Source: Hymenobacter monticola
GTDB taxonomy: Bacteria > Bacteroidota > Bacteroidia > Cytophagales > Hymenobacteraceae
Direction: 5' to 3'
Length of the DNA stretch: 64,000 nucleotides
NCBI RefSeq assembly: GCF_022811645.1
Contig: NZ_CP094534.1
Span: 3,348,001 to 3,412,000, forward strand
Shown: piece after piece, positions 19,057-28,145 of the stretch
Position numbering within the stretch: the stretch's first letter is position 1
Layout of the letters: the number at the start of each line of letters is the position of its first letter
Made by a program: the position numbers and the translations under genes
Notes under the pieces: model-generated
Database searches by the model: none
What the model was told of the DNA's origin: nothing
What the model saw: the letters and a program-made list of their open reading frames with translations, nothing else

Positions 19057-20235
19057 ATGCACCTCACCGCCACCACCCAGTTCGGCCTGGAAGAACTGCT
19101 CGCCGACGAGCTCTACGCCCTCGGGGCCGACATCACCCACGTGGGCTCCCGCGCCGTGGAATTCATCGGCGACCACCGCCTGCTCTACGAAGTGGCCCTC
19201 TGGAGCCGGCTCTCCATGCGCCTGCTGCGGCCCTTCGCCGCCTTTTACGCCGCCGATGAAAAAGCCCTTTACCGTGAAGTGAGCCGCATCGACTGGCAGG
19301 ATTTCATCGGCCCCGGCCAAACCTTCGCCATCACGCCCGTGGTGAACCGCTCCACCTTCGAGCACTCGCTCTTCGTGGCCCAGCTCACTAAGGATGCCAT
19401 TGTGGACCAGTTCCGCAAACGCACCGGCGAGCGGCCCAGCATCGACACCCGCCAGCCGGACATCCGCCTGCACCTGCGCATGACGGAAAACGAAGTCATC
19501 CTCAGCCTCGACGCGGCCGGCGACTCGCTGCACCGCCGCGGCTACCGCCAGGGCACCAACGAAGCGCCCCTGAACGAGGTGCTGGCGGCAGGACTGGTCC
19601 TACTCTCGGGCTGGGACGGCAAACAGCCCCTCATCGACCCCATGTGCGGCTCGGCCACCCTCCTCACCGAAGCCGGCCTGATGTGCCAGCGCATCGCGCC
19701 CGGCCTGTTCCACCAGGGCAAGTTCGGTTTCGAAAACTGGTACGACTTCGACCCGCAACTCTGGCAGCAGGTGCGCGAAGAAGCCAAAGCCCAGCGCCTC
19801 GAAGAGCCGCAAGCCTATCTCGCCGGCTCCGACCTCGACCCCAAAGTCATCGACGCGGCCGCCGCCAACATCACCGCCGCCGGCCTCGAAGACTGCGTCC
19901 GCCTCTCGGTGCGCAACGTGAAGGACGCCACCGCGCCCGCCAAGGAGGAGCCCGGCATCGTGCTGATGAACCCGCCCTACGGCGAGCGGATAGGGGAGGA
20001 GGCCCAGATGGCCGCGCTCTACAAAACCATCGGCGACTCGTTGAAAACGAATTTCCAGGGCTACAACGCCTTTGTGTTCACCGGCAACCTAGAAGCGGCC
20101 AAGAGCATCGGGCTGAAGCCGGCGCGGCGCATCCCGCTATTTAACGGGCCGATTGACTGCCGACTGTTGAAGTATGAATTGTATCGGGGCTCACGCCGTG
20201 AGCCGAAATCTGTCGAAGGGCCGGGCGAAAACTAA
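19057..20235 (+). CDS. THUMP-domain class I SAM-dependent RNA methyltransferase (RlmL N-terminal half type)
   Basis: A 392-residue protein corresponding to the THUMP plus N6/N2-guanine methyltransferase half of RlmL, the enzyme making m2G in 23S rRNA. The THUMP region is about 1-150 (FGLEELLADELYALGA...). The Rossmann methyltransferase follows: LIDPMCGSATLLTEA (SAM binding), LAGSDLDPKVIDAAAANI and the catalytic MNPPYGERI. The C-terminal tail beyond LLKYELYRGS is REPKSVEGPGEN, which seems to be read-through of a hairpin (GGCTCACGCCGTGAGCC near 20190-20206), so the natural C-terminus was probably shorter. Family certain, target nucleotide inferred. Confidence 0.9.
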   Translation: MHLTATTQFGLEELLADELYALGADITHVGSRAVEFIGDHRLLYEVALWSRLSMRLLRPFAAFYAADEKALYREVSRIDWQDFIGPGQTFAITPVVNRSTFEHSLFVAQLTKDAIVDQFRKRTGERPSIDTRQPDIRLHLRMTENEVILSLDAAGDSLHRRGYRQGTNEAPLNEVLAAGLVLLSGWDGKQPLIDPMCGSATLLTEAGLMCQRIAPGLFHQGKFGFENWYDFDPQLWQQVREEAKAQRLEEPQAYLAGSDLDPKVIDAAAANITAAGLEDCVRLSVRNVKDATAPAKEEPGIVLMNPPYGERIGEEAQMAALYKTIGDSLKTNFQGYNAFVFTGNLEAAKSIGLKPARRIPLFNGPIDCRLLKYELYRGSRREPKSVEGPGEN

Positions 20236-20293
20236 TCTGCTTGGAACTTCCGGCCCCCGGCTGTTATTTTTATCTAATTACTCCGTCTGCATT

Positions 20294-22555
20294 ATGTCCG
20301 ATACCCTAACTACCGCCCCCACCGACCTGCTGCCCGCCGCCCGCCAGGCCCTGAAACGGTATTACGGCTACGACAACTTCCGCCCCATGCAGGGCGACAT
20401 CATCCAGAACATCCTGGGCGGGCGCGATACCGTGGTGCTCATGCCCACCGGCGGCGGCAAGTCGGTCTGCTTCCAGATTCCGGCCGTGGTGTCGGAAGGC
20501 ACCTGCGTGGTCGTCTCGCCCCTCATTGCCTTGATGAAGGACCAGGTGGAGGCCCTGAAAGCCAACGGCATCGCGGCGGCCTACATCAACAGCAGCGTGG
20601 GCCAGTCGGAGTCCAACGACATTGCCCGGGCGGCCGTGAGCGGGCACCTGAAGCTGCTGTATGTCTCGCCGGAGAAGCTGCTGAGCGAGGGCTTTCTGCA
20701 GTTCCTGAACCGGGTGAACATCAGCTTGTTTGCCATTGACGAAGCGCACTGTATTTCGAGCTGGGGTCATGATTTCCGGCCCGAGTACACCCAGCTGGGT
20801 CAGCTACGGAACCACTTCCCCAACACGCCCATCATCGCTCTCACGGCCACGGCCGACCGCCTCACCAAGCGCGACATCATCACCCAGCTCAACATGCGTG
20901 AGCCCAAGGTGTTCCTGTCCAGCTTCGACCGGCCCAATATCAACCTGATTGTGCGCGGCGGCCAGGGCCGGATTGAGGGCATGCTCGACTACATCGGCCG
21001 GCACCCGCAGGACCCCGGCATTATCTACTGCCTCTCGCGCAAAACCTGCGAAACCATCTCCCAGAAGCTCATCGCCAAAGGCATAAAGGCCGGGCATTAC
21101 CACGCGGGCATGACTCCCCTGCAGCGCGGCAAGGTGCAGGAAGCTTTTTTGCAGGATGATTTGCAGGTCATTGTGGCCACCATCGCCTTTGGCATGGGCA
21201 TCGACAAGAGCAACGTGCGCTGGGTGATGCACTACAACCTGCCCAAAAACATCGAGGGCTACTACCAGGAAATCGGCCGGGCCGGCCGCGACGGCGCGCC
21301 CAGCACCGCCATCCTGTTCTACAGCTTCGCCGACGTGATGCAGATGCGCGAGATGGTGACCAAGGACGTGCCCGCGCGCCAGGCCCAGCTCAACACGGCC
21401 AAGCTGGAGCGCATGCAGCAGTTTGCCGAAGCCGCCAGCTGCCGCCGCAAAATCCTGCTCAACTACTTCTCCGAAACCCTGCAGGAAGAGTGCGGCAATT
21501 GCGACATCTGCCGCAACCCGCCTACCACGTTCGACGGCACGCTGATTGCTCAAAAGGCCCTCTCGGCCGTGTTCCGCAGCCGCGAGAAAGTGGCCATCAA
21601 CCTGCTGATTGATATTCTGCGCGGCATGCGCAACCAGGCCGTGCTGCAAGGCGGCTACGACCAGATTAAAACCTACGGCGCGGGCAATGACCTGCCCTAC
21701 CTCGACTGGTACAGCTACATCCACCAGATGCTGAACGACGGCCTGTTCTACATTGCCTACGAGGAAGGCTACGCCCTAAAAATCACCGAGCGCGGCCACC
21801 AAGTGCTCAAAGGGCAGCTCACGCTGCAACTCAAGAAATTCCAGCCCAGCGAGAAGGCAGAAAAGCCCACCCGCGCCAGCAAGAAAGCCGCCAACGCCGC
21901 CTCCACGGCCGCCGTGGGCACGCCCGAGGCCCAGCTGTTCGACAAGCTGCGCCGGCTGCGCAAGGCCATTGCCGATGAGCAGGGCGTGCCGCCCTACGTG
22001 GTATTCTCCGACGCCACGCTGCAGGAAATGGCGGCCGAGCGGCCCGTCAGCCGCGTGGGCATGCTGGGCATCTCGGGCGTGGGCATGAAGAAGTTTGAGA
22101 CCTACGGCGAGGCCTTCATCAAGCTCATCATCGAGCACGGCGGCGGTGGATACGTGCCCTCCGATTCGGATAGCATGTTCAACGAGCCCGCCCGCCCGCG
22201 CCTGGCCGCGCCGTCGGGGGCTGCCACTGCCACGGCCGACAAGCCCGTGAGCGACTCCGAAGACGCCACCGTGCAGTTCCACCAAATGGGCCTCACGCCG
22301 GAAGATATTTCGGAGCGCCGCGGCCTGGCCCTGAGCACCGTGAAAACCCACCTCTACACCGCCTACGCCAAGGGCCGCGAGCTACGCATTCAGGACTTTG
22401 TGAGCGACTCCGAGCTGGCCGAAATCCTCACCGCCCGTGCCCAGCTCGGCAACGACGCCACCCTGCGCGACCTGTTCGACCACCTGCGTGAGAAGTACGA
22501 CTACTTCCAGTTGCGCATGGCCGGACTATACCACAAGCGCCTGCGCGGGCAGTAA
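20294..22555 (+). CDS. recQ: ATP-dependent DNA helicase RecQ
   Basis: A 753-residue RecQ, a 3'-5' DNA helicase in recombination and replication-fork repair. Seen: YYGYDNFRPMQGDII (motif 0), Walker A PTGGGKS (51-57), DEAHCISSWGHDFRPEY, ALTATAD, IYCLSRKTCE, AFGMGIDKSNVRWVMH, QEIGRAGRDG; the zinc-binding cysteines C-x-RRKILLNYF...ECGNCDIC; a winged-helix RQC region; an HRDC-like segment (LFDKLRRLRKAIADEQGVPPYVVFSD); and a C-terminal helix-turn-helix (GLTPEDISERRGLALSTVKTHL) as in many Bacteroidota RecQ proteins. Start at ATG 20294 (MSDTLTTAP); the upstream in-frame part lies over the preceding gene's end. Confidence 0.96.
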   Translation: MSDTLTTAPTDLLPAARQALKRYYGYDNFRPMQGDIIQNILGGRDTVVLMPTGGGKSVCFQIPAVVSEGTCVVVSPLIALMKDQVEALKANGIAAAYINSSVGQSESNDIARAAVSGHLKLLYVSPEKLLSEGFLQFLNRVNISLFAIDEAHCISSWGHDFRPEYTQLGQLRNHFPNTPIIALTATADRLTKRDIITQLNMREPKVFLSSFDRPNINLIVRGGQGRIEGMLDYIGRHPQDPGIIYCLSRKTCETISQKLIAKGIKAGHYHAGMTPLQRGKVQEAFLQDDLQVIVATIAFGMGIDKSNVRWVMHYNLPKNIEGYYQEIGRAGRDGAPSTAILFYSFADVMQMREMVTKDVPARQAQLNTAKLERMQQFAEAASCRRKILLNYFSETLQEECGNCDICRNPPTTFDGTLIAQKALSAVFRSREKVAINLLIDILRGMRNQAVLQGGYDQIKTYGAGNDLPYLDWYSYIHQMLNDGLFYIAYEEGYALKITERGHQVLKGQLTLQLKKFQPSEKAEKPTRASKKAANAASTAAVGTPEAQLFDKLRRLRKAIADEQGVPPYVVFSDATLQEMAAERPVSRVGMLGISGVGMKKFETYGEAFIKLIIEHGGGGYVPSDSDSMFNEPARPRLAAPSGAATATADKPVSDSEDATVQFHQMGLTPEDISERRGLALSTVKTHLYTAYAKGRELRIQDFVSDSELAEILTARAQLGNDATLRDLFDHLREKYDYFQLRMAGLYHKRLRGQ

Positions 22556-22650: not shown

Positions 22651-23325
22651 ATGTTTCGAAAAATTCCTCTATTTCTGGTCGCTGCGCTCATCGCTGCTTT
22701 CGCGGTTCTGATGCTCACCAAAACGCTGCCCTATTACACCTTCGAGAAGGGCATCCACTTCCTTACCACCAAGAGCGACGAAACCAACGACAGCCAGACT
22801 TTCCGGCTGGGGTTCTACGTGCACATCACCACCAGCCTCGTGGTGCTGGTGCTGGGGCTGCTACAGTTTCTGCCGTGGCTGGTGCGGCTAGGGCCGGGGC
22901 TGCACCGGGCGTTGGGCAAGAGCTACGTCATCGGCATTCTGGCGCTGGCCGCGCCGTCGGGCCTCATCTTGGCGTACTTTGCCAACGGCGGGCTGGCGGC
23001 GCAAGTGGGTTTCACGCTGCAGTGCCTGGTGTGGTGGCTCTGCACCTGGAAGGCCTACCGCGCCGCCCGCCAGCGCCAGTGGCCCCTGCACGTGGACTGG
23101 ATGCTGCGCTCCTTTGCTGTGACGCTGGCTGCCCTGGCCCTGCGTGGCGAGAGCTATATCATGTACTATGTGTTCGAAACCAAGCCGATAGAGACCTACC
23201 TGACGGTGACCTGGCTCTCGTGGGTGGGCAATTTGATACTCGTGGAAATCCTGCTGGAGCTAGGGCTGGGGCGGTATTTCCTGCGCGAGTTTATGCCGGA
23301 GCTGCGTGCTAAATTGGCGGCATGA
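22651..23325 (+). CDS. DUF2306 family membrane protein
   Basis: A 224-residue protein with about six membrane helices. The first (KIPLFLVAALIAAFAVLML) is followed by an external segment, then FYVHITTSLVVLVLGLLQFLP, the family-typical LHRALGKSYVIGIL, and later HVDWMLRSFAVTLAALALRG and WLSWVGNLILVEILL. Conserved His residues in YVHI, LHRALG and HVDWM may bind a metal or haem, as suggested for this family, but that is inference. ATG 22651 is chosen; an in-frame TTG at 22630 is possible. The stop overlaps the ATG of the next gene (ATGA), so the two are translationally coupled. Confidence 0.85.
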   Translation: MFRKIPLFLVAALIAAFAVLMLTKTLPYYTFEKGIHFLTTKSDETNDSQTFRLGFYVHITTSLVVLVLGLLQFLPWLVRLGPGLHRALGKSYVIGILALAAPSGLILAYFANGGLAAQVGFTLQCLVWWLCTWKAYRAARQRQWPLHVDWMLRSFAVTLAALALRGESYIMYYVFETKPIETYLTVTWLSWVGNLILVEILLELGLGRYFLREFMPELRAKLAA

Positions 23326-24185
23326 GAAACCTGATAATTCTACTTTTTCTGCTCTTTGGGGCGGCCTGCCAACACCAGCAGCGTGTAGAAACAAAAGCTG
23401 CCATTGGCTCGGCAGCAGAGAAAGAAAAGGCCGTTTCTCCGCCTTCAGGCCGCGTCGCCCAGCAAGTGCCAATGGCCACCAGCGCCGCCGATACCCTGAC
23501 GCCGGAGATGCTGGCATTGCTGCGTCGGTTCGATTTTGCGCCCCTTTGGAGCGGGCAACGCTCCGAAACCACTACCCCCGTGCTGGATGGTTTTTTTGGT
23601 GACGAGCACCGGCGCATTTCCTTTGTGTTTGCCAAAATTGTGCGCGACAGCACCCAGCCCCAATTATTTTATGTGCGGGGCAAAAACAAATTCCGGCAAG
23701 CGGTGACCCCGTTTTCCGGCATTATTCGGATAACAACGCTCGTCGATTTGCCCGGGCACGGCTTCCTGGACATGGACAGTGCTGCCAGTGAAGCCTACAC
23801 TGCCAAGGCGCGCTTTACTTTTCTGGAACAGCCGGGGGCTTCTGGAACTGGAACATTCACCGGCACCGCGTTTCTGGATTTTTTCATCGACGGTGACGGG
23901 GAATTACGGATTGGGCAAACCGTGATGAACCCCGACACCACCGCGCCCGCCCGGGGCGCAGGGGTCCTATACCGAGGCACGTGGACCAGCGCCGCCCGTC
24001 GGCAAGCGAAGCCGATTGTGATTGCCAACGACGTGCTGATGGTGGCGCCCGAGATGTTGCCTCAATTCGGTATGGGTGAGCGCAATGCCCAAATCAACCC
24101 CAAATACGCTAGGCTGGGCTGGACCGAAATGTGGGAAAACGACGAATGGTGGGCCGCATCACCCAAGCCCAAGCTCAGCCTTTAA
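23322..24185 (+). CDS. Lipoprotein of an unnamed family, paralog 1 of 4
   Basis: A 287-residue putative lipoprotein (signal FLLFGAACQ, lipidated Cys about 16). The mature part after a low-complexity linker contains the cluster's shared core: LRRFDFAPLW; DGFFGDEHRRISFVFAKIVRD; FYVRGKNKFRQAVTPFSG; a middle beta region (GTGTFTGTAFLDFF); VLYRGTWTSAARRQAKPI; and the C-terminal signature FGMGERNAQINPKYARLGWT followed by WENDEWW. I do not know this family. It overlaps the DUF2306 gene by four bases, so it is the second gene of a likely operon. Confidence 0.8.
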   Translation: MRNLIILLFLLFGAACQHQQRVETKAAIGSAAEKEKAVSPPSGRVAQQVPMATSAADTLTPEMLALLRRFDFAPLWSGQRSETTTPVLDGFFGDEHRRISFVFAKIVRDSTQPQLFYVRGKNKFRQAVTPFSGIIRITTLVDLPGHGFLDMDSAASEAYTAKARFTFLEQPGASGTGTFTGTAFLDFFIDGDGELRIGQTVMNPDTTAPARGAGVLYRGTWTSAARRQAKPIVIANDVLMVAPEMLPQFGMGERNAQINPKYARLGWTEMWENDEWWAASPKPKLSL

Positions 24186-24201
24186 CCTGTCGCTGCTCTG
24201 C

Positions 24202-25137
24202 ATGAAAACGCCGTCTTTATTATTGTTTCTGCTCGGCCTGGCAGCCTGCCAGTCACAAACGCATCCCGTCGTTCAAGCGGCAGCCCCAGTTGCAGAGGTG
24301 GCTCCGGTTGCAATTCCGCAGCCCGCCAAAGCAACGGTGGACTCCGTGGCGCTGCCGGCCGTTTTCGCGGCCCGCGACACCCTGACGGCCCAAGACCGGG
24401 CGGTGCTGCGCCGCTACGACCTGTCCAAACTGTGGCAGGGCGGCACCGGCGGGGCGCAGGCGGCGTCGGTACTGGAAGGCTTTTTTGGCCCCGACCACTA
24501 CCGGTTTGAGCTGGCCTTTACCGCCGTGCACCGCGACGCTGCCAACCCCGCCCTCTACCATGTGCGCGGCAAATGCCACTACCGCAAAAACGTGCGTCCT
24601 TTCACCGGCACGCTCCTCATCCGGCAGCTGCACGACCTGGAGCCGCCCTACGAATTCGACTACACCGATGCCGACGCGCCCAACCAGAACTACGGTGCCA
24701 ATTCCGACACGGCTGGTACGGAATATGAGAAAAAGGTGCAGCGGGCGCACCCGCGCGAAGTGCGGGCCGAGCTGCGCCTCACCGAGGAGCCGCAAGCCAA
24801 CGCCGGCGAAATGCTGGCTGCGGCTACGCTGCTGTTTTACGTGAAGTCCAACCACCGTCTGAGCTACATGCGGGCGCCGTTTCGGGGCACCGATGGTCTC
24901 TACAACGCCGGCTATCTGCTCATCAACGGCAGTCGCCTCAACATCAGCACCCGGCAGATAAAGCAGTTTGTGGTGGCCGACAACGTGTTTACGGCGGCCC
25001 CGGACGTGTACAAGGATTTTGAAATAGGCGACCGTGGGGGCGAGATGAACCCCAAATACGCCCACCTGGGCTGGAATGAAAAATGGGAAAATGAAGAATG
25101 GTGGGCCGACTCGCCCAAGCCCAAACTCAGCCTGTAA
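24202..25137 (+). CDS. Lipoprotein of an unnamed family, paralog 2 of 4
   Basis: A 311-residue putative lipoprotein (LLFLLGLAACQSQ, lipidated Cys about 15) 16 bases downstream of paralog 1. Shared core: VLRRYDLSKLW, EGFFGPDHYRFELAFTAVHRD, YHVRGKCHYRKNVRPFTG, YNAGYLLINGS, VVADNVFTAAPDVYKDFEIGD and the ending GGEMNPKYAHLGWNEKWENE-EWW then SPKPKLSL, identical in the last eight residues to paralog 1. It has a longer middle insertion (about residues 150-185, with TDADAPNQNYG) than the others. Start chosen at ATG 24202 because it gives a clean lipobox. Function unknown. Confidence 0.8.
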   Translation: MKTPSLLLFLLGLAACQSQTHPVVQAAAPVAEVAPVAIPQPAKATVDSVALPAVFAARDTLTAQDRAVLRRYDLSKLWQGGTGGAQAASVLEGFFGPDHYRFELAFTAVHRDAANPALYHVRGKCHYRKNVRPFTGTLLIRQLHDLEPPYEFDYTDADAPNQNYGANSDTAGTEYEKKVQRAHPREVRAELRLTEEPQANAGEMLAAATLLFYVKSNHRLSYMRAPFRGTDGLYNAGYLLINGSRLNISTRQIKQFVVADNVFTAAPDVYKDFEIGDRGGEMNPKYAHLGWNEKWENEEWWADSPKPKLSL

Positions 25138-25176
25138 ACGCCCCAGCCTTAACCCCTTCGCAAACCCGGTTGCTTC

Positions 25177-26115
25177 ATGAAACTCTTGCTGATAAGCTGC
25201 GCCGGACTGCTGGCTACGGCCTGCCACTCCCAAAGCCCTCTGCAATCGGCTGCGGCTGAGCGCCTCCCGAATGCTCCTGCTGCCAAAGTCGCCGCCGCGT
25301 CTGGCAAAGCCGAAGCCCTGCCGGGCCCGGTCGCCGTGGCGGCCTTGTCGCCTCAGTTGCGCGAGGAGTTGCAAAGCTCCAACCTCGCGTCGTTGCTGCA
25401 AACCGTGCACAAGACCGAAGCCTTTGCGCAAGATGGCTTTTTCGGCCCCGACCACTACCACATCGAGTTTGCCTTCACGGAGGTGCGGCGCGACCCCGCC
25501 CGGCCCACCGTGTATTACCTGCGCGGCAAAGACCGGTACAAAGGCATCATCACGCCCTTCGCCGGCACCTTCACCGTCGAGCAGTTCGGGGAGCAACCTT
25601 ATTTCAGTGCCCGCGAGATTGCCGCCATGGCCAAACAGGGCGGCGTGATAGCCAATTTCCCTGGTTACTACTCTGCAATTGGCACGTTTGAGCTGCGGGA
25701 AGATTCGACCCGCCGCGGCGCGGGTACCTTTCGGGGCCGCTTGGCGGTCGATTGGTACAAAGAAAAAGACGGTTCGCTGACGCTGAATTGTCGGGGCGTG
25801 ACCGGCCCTTCCCAGGGCGGCCTCATCAAATACGAAGGCACCTGGACCAACGCCACCACCCGCCGCACCTACCCGGTGGTGTGGGCGCAGGATATTTTTG
25901 CCTACAATGCGGTCCAAAACGTGCTCAAAGAATTCAACATCGGCGAGCGGGAAGTGGAAATCAATCCCGAGTACGCCAAGCTGGGCTGGAGCAACTATTG
26001 GGAAAATAAAGAGTGGTGGACCGATGCCCAACGTCCGGTGTTGGTTTCCAGGCTGTTGCTGCCACCCGATATGGCGGCTGCCTCCACCGCGGCGGCCGAT
26101 AGTTCGTTGCCTTAG
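25177..26115 (+). CDS. Lipoprotein of an unnamed family, paralog 3 of 4
   Basis: A 312-residue putative lipoprotein (LLISCAGLLATACHSQ; lipidated Cys about 16). Shared core: LQSSNLASLLQ, DGFFGPDHYHIEFAFTEVRRD, YYLRGKDRYKGIITPFAG, GAGTFRGRLAVDWYKE, LIKYEGTWTNATTRRTYPVV, DIFAYNAVQNVLKEFNIGER and EINPEYAKLGWSNYWENK-EWW. Compared with paralogs 1 and 2 it has an extra C-terminal tail of about 30 residues (VLVSRLLLPPDMAAAS...). It lies 39 bases after paralog 2, so is probably in the same operon. Confidence 0.8.
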   Translation: MKLLLISCAGLLATACHSQSPLQSAAAERLPNAPAAKVAAASGKAEALPGPVAVAALSPQLREELQSSNLASLLQTVHKTEAFAQDGFFGPDHYHIEFAFTEVRRDPARPTVYYLRGKDRYKGIITPFAGTFTVEQFGEQPYFSAREIAAMAKQGGVIANFPGYYSAIGTFELREDSTRRGAGTFRGRLAVDWYKEKDGSLTLNCRGVTGPSQGGLIKYEGTWTNATTRRTYPVVWAQDIFAYNAVQNVLKEFNIGEREVEINPEYAKLGWSNYWENKEWWTDAQRPVLVSRLLLPPDMAAASTAAADSSLP

Positions 26116-26243
26116 TAGGAGGTAGCCCAGAAGCTCGTTTTTATCGGGGCCGCAGTCACACTAAAGCAGTTGGCCCCGACGTTAGGAGTGCACAAGCGCC
26201 ATCTAGCAATATAGCTGGCCACCACTTTCTCATTTACGGGCTT

Positions 26244-27053
26244 ATGCGGTACTTTCTGCTCATCACGGCTCCGGCGTTGCTGCTGGGCGCCACCCACTTC
26301 CATTCCCTGCCGCCCGCGCCAGCACCCAAAAAAACCGTCGCCCCGGCTGCCCTGGCCGCCCCTGGGGTCGTGCTTTCCAACGCTGCCCGCACCGCCCTAC
26401 TGGCCCGCGCCCAGTTGGGCAAGCTCTGGCAGCACCGCCCTCAAAACGGTACCGAAGACGTGCTCAACGGCTGCTACGGCTACGACGGGCGGCGCATCGA
26501 GTTCGTGTTTACCACCGTGCAGGCCGATGCCCACAGCCCCGGCCGCTACCTCGTGGCCGGCAAATTCCGCTGCTACGGCGACGTGACGCCCTTTCGCGGC
26601 AGCGTGGAGGTGCAGCAGGTGCAGCGGCTGTCCAACGAGCAGGCCGCGTACTCGGCCGACGACGAGAACAAAACGCCCACCTACTGCGCCACCGGCAGCT
26701 TTGCCTTGCGCTCCACCACCCACCACGGCCTCGGCGGGGAGTTCAACGGCCGCGTAGCGCTCGATTTCAAGCTCCAGGCCGGCAACCGGGCCGAACTGGC
26801 AACTTACACCAGCAACCCCGCCACCCGCAACGGCGGCCTTTTGTTCGACGGCCAGTGGCGCGAAGACGCCACTTCCGAAACCGCCGTGCCGGTGCTGTGG
26901 AAGCAGGATATTGCCGTGACGCGGCAGGTGCTGACGCGCTTTGGCCTGGGCGACCGCAGCGGCAGCATCAACGCCAAATACGCCCGCGTGGGCTGGAATA
27001 ACTTCTGGTCCAACGAAGAATGGTGGGTCGAAAAATCGGTGGCGCGACGCTAA
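26244..27053 (+). CDS. Secreted protein of an unnamed family, paralog 4 of 4
   Basis: A 269-residue protein with a signal peptide (LLITAPALLLGATHF) but no lipobox Cys, unlike its three neighbours, so it may be periplasmic or secreted. Shared core: RAQLGKLWQ, NGCYGYDGRRIEFVFTTVQAD, YLVAGKFRCYGDVTPFRG, GGEFNGRVALDFKL, GLLFDGQWRED, LTRFGLGDRSGSINAKYARVGWNNFW then SNEEWW. It is the most diverged copy (FFG becomes CYG, VRGK becomes VAGK). A 128-base gap precedes it, so it may have its own promoter. Function unknown. Confidence 0.78.
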   Translation: MRYFLLITAPALLLGATHFHSLPPAPAPKKTVAPAALAAPGVVLSNAARTALLARAQLGKLWQHRPQNGTEDVLNGCYGYDGRRIEFVFTTVQADAHSPGRYLVAGKFRCYGDVTPFRGSVEVQQVQRLSNEQAAYSADDENKTPTYCATGSFALRSTTHHGLGGEFNGRVALDFKLQAGNRAELATYTSNPATRNGGLLFDGQWREDATSETAVPVLWKQDIAVTRQVLTRFGLGDRSGSINAKYARVGWNNFWSNEEWWVEKSVARR

Positions 27054-27170: not shown

Positions 27171-27992
27171 ATGATTAACACCAACCTTAAGTTTTGCCGG
27201 CGCGAGCTCGCCCTCACGCAGGCCCAGATGGCCGACAAGCTCGGCATCAAACGCTCCCTGGTGGGCGCCTACGAAGAAGGCCGCGCCGAGCCCCGCCTCG
27301 CCACCCTCGTCAACATGGCCCGCCTGTTCGGCATCACCCTCGACCAGCTGGTGACCACCGACTTTAGCAAGAAAAAGAACGCCAAAATCATCGGCACCGC
27401 TCCGGCCCCCGAGGCCACGGCCGATACCGACGACCAGCCCGAGCCGCCCACGCCCGCCGGCGGCAAGCTCCGCGTGCTGGCCTTCACCGTGGACCAGGAC
27501 CAGAACGAGAACATCGAGCTGGTGCCCCAGAAAGCCGCCGCCGGCTACCTCAACGGCTACGCCGACCGCGAGTACCTGGAGGTGCTGCCCAAGTTCCGCC
27601 TGCCCATGCTCTCGAGCACGGGCACGTATCGGGCCTTCGAAATTGCCGGCGACTCCATGCTGCCCATTGCCAGCGGCACCGTCATCGTGGGCCGCTACGT
27701 GGAAGACTGGACGAGCATCAAGGACGGCACGCCCTGCATTGTGGTGAGCACCCGCGAGGGCATCGTGTTCAAGCGCGTGTACAACAAGCTGCGCTCGGGC
27801 GCCATGTTCGTGCTGCACTCCGACAACCCGCATTTCTCGCCCTACGACGTGAAGGTGGACGACGTGCTCGAAATCTGGGAAGCCAAGAGCTACATCAGCA
27901 GCACCTTCCCCATTGCCGAGCTCTCGCTGGAGCGCGTGGCCAGCCTTGTGCTTGACTTGCAGCAGCAAGTGGCGCTGCTGAAGAAGGCCTAG
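27171..27992 (+). CDS. LexA-like XRE-family regulator with S24 peptidase domain
   Basis: A 273-residue protein. An N-terminal XRE helix-turn-helix (about 5-60; LTQAQMADKLGIKRSLVGAYEEGRAEP) binds DNA. After a Pro-rich linker comes an S24/LexA-type domain: candidate self-cleavage site Ala124-Gly125 (KAAAGYLNGY), nucleophile Ser162 (IAGDSMLPI) and general base Lys201 (GIVFKRVYNK). The C-terminal 25 residues (LSLERVASLVLDLQQQVALLKKA) look like a short coiled coil for dimerisation. By analogy with LexA and CI it could be a repressor that cleaves itself on a stress signal. It lies 117 bases downstream of the lipoprotein cluster with its own possible promoter (TATCTTCG at about 27089-27096). Confidence 0.88.
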   Translation: MINTNLKFCRRELALTQAQMADKLGIKRSLVGAYEEGRAEPRLATLVNMARLFGITLDQLVTTDFSKKKNAKIIGTAPAPEATADTDDQPEPPTPAGGKLRVLAFTVDQDQNENIELVPQKAAAGYLNGYADREYLEVLPKFRLPMLSSTGTYRAFEIAGDSMLPIASGTVIVGRYVEDWTSIKDGTPCIVVSTREGIVFKRVYNKLRSGAMFVLHSDNPHFSPYDVKVDDVLEIWEAKSYISSTFPIAELSLERVASLVLDLQQQVALLKKA

Positions 27993-28049: not shown

Positions 28050-28145
28050 AACGGTCATGCTGAGCGCAGCCGAAGCATCTCTACCGCAGTAGTAAATAAT
28101 TACTAGTGCGGTAGAGATGCTTCGGCTGCGCTCAGCATGACCGTT
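28050..28145. repeat. 96-bp palindrome with perfect 39-base arms (family C, copy 1)
   Basis: The left arm 28050-28088 (AACGGTCATGCTGAGCGCAG...) and right arm 28107-28145 are exact reverse complements. The 18-base centre itself contains TAGTAA...TTACTA, so nearly the whole element can fold on itself. It lies between the XRE/S24 gene and pirin. Related partial copies are at 1578-1615, 36531-36615 and 56883-56982. No coding function. Confidence 0.92.

Follow-up and report, generated by a model that had tools for sequence, protein, structure and literature searches.

The window analyzed here, a 64,000-nucleotide stretch of the Hymenobacter monticola genome, carries on its forward strand a cassette made of one gene for a DUF2306 membrane protein and four tandem paralogs, g1 to g4, that encode predicted barrel proteins. 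The DUF2306 gene (22651..23325) specifies a protein of 224 amino acids (aa) and shares an ATGA overlap with g1 (23322..24185, 287 aa). The latter is followed by g2 (24202..25137, 311 aa), g3 (25177..26115, 312 aa) and g4 (26244..27053, 269 aa), three genes delimited from their open reading frames (ORFs), the alignment and a phylogenetic tree. The start of g2 was taken as the ATG at 24202, the listed ORF opening at an upstream GTG. A first-pass annotation of this DNA, made from the sequence alone, had recognized the four paralogs, the overlap, the gaps of 16, 39 and 128 bases between them and the 117 bases that separate g4 from the next gene. Our analysis agrees with it on these points: four same-strand ORFs present the shared blocks and the C-terminal signature, and a lipobox occurs in g1, g2 and g3 and is missing from g4.

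The core shared by g1 to g4 is far beyond chance. When aligned over their length, g2, g3 and g4 are 38, 33 and 29% identical to g1, and a profile search of the same genome recovered g1 to g4 alone at E <= 1e-5 (E 4e-136 to 8e-122); with g1 as the only query, two short hits of low significance came up at other sites (E 6e-4 and 0.26). The four proteins had no Pfam match above cut-off, none in NCBIfam and none among Protein Data Bank (PDB) sequences at E <= 10, which upholds the earlier view of an unnamed family, and eight of their relatives likewise had no Pfam match above cut-off. The AlphaFold2 (AF2) model of g1 (mean predicted local distance difference test, pLDDT, 82.8) is a meander beta-barrel of avidin or calycin type (residues 67-239, 23520..24038), borne on a tether of some 40 residues modelled at low confidence and followed by a conserved, Trp-rich tail of about 50 residues (240-287, 24039..24182) that ends in INPKYAxLGW-x3-W-x2-EWW. 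Foldseek returned nothing at E <= 1e-3 for this model or for that of the DUF2306 protein; with the g1 barrel, 714 matches appeared at E <= 10, none of them at E <= 0.001, and no YceI chain was among the matches listed. The predicted fold also resembles the barrel of the Cap15 defence receptor, and GID4 is another meander barrel of like kind. Proteins of the g1 type differ from avidin and streptavidin, GID4 and Cap15 in their C-tail and tether, and no avidin sequence match was found for g1 to g4 in Pfam or among PDB sequences at E <= 10. Within the otherwise variable tether, a T-H-K-E-A-x-D-(S/T)-L motif is conserved in 21 of 120 tree members (their loci include L080, L081, L083, L095, L107, L111, L135 and L139), all of which lie outside Hymenobacteraceae, where 13 other members are devoid of it.

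The pairing of the barrel genes with DUF2306 is the central feature of the system. The window ORF is a clear member of PF10067 (109.5 bits against a curated cut-off of 31.6, E 2e-31). In an order-level sample of Cytophagales, a family match was present in 40/291 genomes and 15/115 genera; 26 of these genomes contained a core member (E below 1e-50) and the other 14 weaker matches only. DUF2306 was found upstream on the same strand in 26/26 of the core-member genomes, with 17-265 bases between the profile matches. A profile of linked DUF2306 sequences, searched against the 291 genomes, gave 26 matches at 283-371 bits that were the same genes adjoining the family, and the next match fell to 227 bits in a family-less genome, with no orphan above the gap. 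This gap arises partly by construction, since most of the 40 rows in the profile are themselves linked: the window contributed one and linked loci 31, next to 8 close homologues taken without a neighbour check. In a genus-level sample, 57/101 genomes matched the family and a single genome held as many as 8 matches, counts that take in a more distant subfamily, and any DUF2306 at E <= 1e-5 occurred in 14/14 genomes with a core member and 0/19 without one, counts uncorrected for kinship.

Two family peptide patterns, scanned against named genomes, yielded 53 loci, each with one DUF2306 match and with 1-6 barrel genes per cluster. DUF2306 lies directly upstream at 52 of them, overlapping by 4 bases in 19. 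At the remaining locus, L139 in a metagenome-assembled genome (MAG) of Chitinophagales, it is found two genes downstream in the same orientation, separated from the barrel gene by a TIR-domain gene (L139:6877-8127, PF13676 E 2e-16) on that strand; seen once, the TIR protein was rejected as a partner of the system. The coupling to DUF2306 proposed in the first-pass annotation is thus near-exclusive in the order sample and the named loci. As a genomic fact the pairing is near-certain, and DUF2306 and the barrel genes almost surely constitute one functional unit. Among the listings and opening lines of abstracts from an open-licence literature library, no published description of the pair was found, and searches there yielded none of the barrel family.

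The AF2 model of the DUF2306 protein is of high confidence (pLDDT 92.9) and shows six helices. Conserved positions include His58, His85 and His147, which are invariant, and Arg165. DUF2306 as a whole occurs in 144/291 Cytophagales genomes (E <= 1e-5); the linked proteins form a separate score class with residues of their own, mostly on the periplasmic side. The cytochrome b561 profile (PF01292) did not match the protein, which is matched by PF10067 alone, and a profile alignment (hhalign) for this comparison, with 19 sequences of relatives, gave a probability of 0.05%. The fungal DUF2306 protein PraC is needed for pramanicin epoxidation, which the authors of that study describe as the first functional assignment for DUF2306, made in January 2026 (PMC12895699).

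The named loci span Hymenobacter, Solirubrum, Runella, Lacihabitans, Siphonobacter, Rhodocytophaga, Xanthocytophaga and other genera, together with MAGs labelled Emticicia, Flectobacillus, Saprospiraceae and Chitinophagales. In a phylum-level sample, 18/395 genomes had a family match, 14 of them outside the order: six encode proteins marked by the motif W(G/A)D(Y/F)RIP (our own label for a group that carries no family name), two encode other long relatives, and six, all from one genus of another family, encode single barrels of about 160 aa (L270-L275). Proteins of the W(G/A)D(Y/F)RIP group are secreted Bacteroidota proteins that match the same profile as g1 to g4, share KY-x3-GW with them and in many cases end in WW as well; they differ in that no lipobox was seen by inspection in most and no linked DUF2306 was found beside the loci sampled. 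No DUF2306 was present in the flanks (about 1.5 kb) of the 14 outside-order loci, the short single barrels included, and linked DUF2306 was not seen at 14 distant-subfamily loci of the order (L084-L093, L096-L099). Two records are probably mislabelled or mis-binned: L145, a cassette of Hymenobacter type assigned to a Microbacteriaceae MAG, and P0117, a DUF2306 protein of 89% identity attributed to Microvirga sp. STS02.

Comparison of the window with 17 Hymenobacteraceae loci revealed a conserved DUF2306 and barrel genes with fast turnover. The flanking genes and DUF2306, found in 11 to 17 loci each, had median identities to the window of 90.3-93.9% and 88.4%, and the best matches of g1, g2, g3 and g4, possibly paralogs, had medians of 36.5, 36.7, 35.4 and 66.7%. 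The 120-member tree places the window genes on four branches: g1 and g2 fall in one supported group of 17 rows, within which g2 belongs to a clade of 3; g3 lies in a clade of 5; and g4 lies in a clade of 13, all of them the last gene of their cluster. These placements and the low best-match identities support the view that the paralogs are diverging, as the first-pass annotation had noted. Ratios of nonsynonymous to synonymous substitution rates (dN/dS) for pairs of g2 and g4 in four relatives were 0.18-0.41, compared with 0.16-0.19 for DUF2306 and 0.03-0.17 for the flanks; a g3 pair gave 0.29 at a dS of 1.4 and is probably not orthologous. With dN/dS well below 1, the barrel genes are to be regarded as genuine and subject to purifying selection, though with faster change and with gains and losses, and whole-gene positive selection was rejected for the pairs compared. 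The Hymenobacter rigui cluster (L078 and L123, overlapping stretches) contains family members broken into fragments of 103-198 aa, which fits gene loss. At locus L171, the genes on either side share 89-93% identity with their window counterparts, which suggests that DUF2306 and the barrels are gained or lost as a block and that this event was probably recent.

An outer-surface location had also been proposed for the barrels. In Bacteroidota, the surface lipoprotein export signal (LES) consists of acidic residues that directly follow the +1 Cys (PMC5080379). Of the 120 members, 59 have a strict lipobox; 47 of these carry no acidic residue at +2 to +6, 12 carry a single one and none carries two. 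Five readable sequences of the nine SusD-like lipoproteins in the same genome served as controls, three having two acidic residues and two having one. Surface exposure is therefore not supported, and since the acidic signal is missing, barrels that face the periplasm are the better guess.

The cassette lies between an ORF that we take from its sequence to be recQ-like (20174..22555) and a regulator gene (27171..27992), both on the forward strand. The regulator has HTH_3 and Peptidase_S24 domains, with Ser162, Lys201 and a candidate Ala124-Gly125 cleavage site at the positions first reported, and in PADLOC it matches several HTH models. The two genes form the flanking pair in Hymenobacteraceae, and their synteny was followed with and without the cassette; both are read as bystanders. 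The S24 gene is kept, at 72-92% identity, in 12/12 chosen family-less Hymenobacter genomes. Among 10 fetched family-less stretches, none with a DUF2306 or family match, seven place recQ and the S24 gene at most 0.3 kb apart with no cassette between, two space them 1.0 and 2.1 kb apart, and one has no recQ within the stretch fetched. Neither gene stands beside the pair in any of six core loci from other families (L080-L083, L094, L095). Behind the S24 gene lies a 46-base inverted repeat (98%, window 28050-28145). A 34-base half of it has 62 copies in the genome (32 forward and 30 reverse at <=3 mismatches; control 0), often in facing pairs, which describes a repeat like those of the repetitive extragenic palindromic (REP) type.

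A known arrangement of similar layout is LcoA-BcnA, in which a cytochrome b561 is paired with a YceI lipocalin, and whose counterpart in Escherichia coli is YceJ-YceI. In this conserved pair a multi-helix membrane gene lies directly upstream of the gene for a periplasmic ligand-binding barrel, and loss of either of the adjoining genes increases membrane lipid peroxidation (PMC9113575). Kinship at profile level was found neither with DUF2306 nor with the barrels: YceI (PF04264) matched neither g1 to g4 nor eight relatives, and hhalign gave 1.1 and 3.4%, these and the b561 comparison being run without a positive control. The g1-g4 family further departs from BcnA in that many members are lipoproteins with a long tether, in the tandem arrays and in the Trp-rich C-tail. 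Because the layout is alike and sequence kinship is undetected, we liken the working of the DUF2306-barrel pair to that of LcoA-BcnA but do not class it with that system.

In the reading that we prefer, the cassette would encode a two-part envelope system of a single DUF2306 protein and one to six calycin-like barrels. DUF2306 would span the inner membrane with six helices and both ends inside, its invariant histidines probably holding a redox centre such as b-type haem or a metal. The barrels, mostly lipid-tethered and facing the periplasm, would each carry a hydrophobic small molecule (a lipid, a quinone or an isoprenoid of like kind) and, possibly by way of the Trp-rich C-tail, dock on DUF2306 from its periplasmic side. 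DUF2306 would then reduce or oxygenate the cargo, and the paralogs would supply one hub with several cargoes. Gene pairing, predicted folds, conserved residues, a missing surface-export signal and fast turnover are what the data display directly; the redox centre, ligand class, docking and physiological role are what we infer. We hold this redox-and-cargo mechanism tentatively, at somewhat less than even confidence.

A related but rather doubtful explanation is that DUF2306 acts as an oxygenase that adds oxygen to a lipid-like metabolite, with the barrels delivering or removing substrate and no protective redox cycle. The requirement for PraC in epoxidation, the exclusive pairing and the specific residues on the periplasmic side of DUF2306 speak in its favour, but the PraC authors leave open both its mechanism and whether it is itself the catalyst (PMC12895699). 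Moreover, at the six outside core loci, a small sample with functionally unannotated neighbours, no additional gene is found repeatedly next to the pair, an observation that also weighs against a repertoire for recognition or immunity. Under that view the barrels would serve as decoys, sensors or immunity proteins to counter a diversity of attackers, with DUF2306 as the membrane component they work with. This second possibility, which extends the suggestion of self/non-self recognition in the first-pass annotation, draws on the fast turnover and the likeness to the Cap15 barrel; however, neither DUF2306 nor g1 to g4 had a PADLOC match, for which reason anti-phage defence was rejected, the dN/dS of ortholog pairs indicates no overall positive selection, and strict pairing with one conserved membrane protein would be unexpected for immunity genes. 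We consider it improbable.

Haem capture or delivery, with barrels as haemophores that load DUF2306 or a transporter, appears more improbable still: the conserved histidines of DUF2306 are compatible with it, but the Riemerella haemophore found by Foldseek (8xjc, E 0.58) is one of the weak matches at chance level. The least probable explanation, and a very remote one, is the original proposal of an inducible set of surface proteins controlled upon DNA damage by the LexA-like S24 regulator. The regulator adjoins the cassette in the window and was found in 17/17 cassette-bearing Hymenobacteraceae loci compared, but its retention in every family-less genome chosen and the failure to find it beside the pair at the six outside loci show that it is not restricted to the module, and we reject it as a part of the system. 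In addition, a -7-like element precedes the regulator only and not the cassette, and the barrels lack the surface-export signal.

Returning to the redox-and-cargo reading, we regard it as possible, though unlikely enough to call for caution, that the cassette represents an undescribed Bacteroidota system in which a conserved DUF2306 redox hub is served by exchangeable, fast-turnover tethered calycin lipoproteins that bring it different hydrophobic cargoes through the periplasm. A single conserved hub with diversifying partners is an unusual pattern for a periplasmic system. DUF2306 is widespread, and a near-exclusive soluble partner offers a direct handle on the role of this membrane protein.
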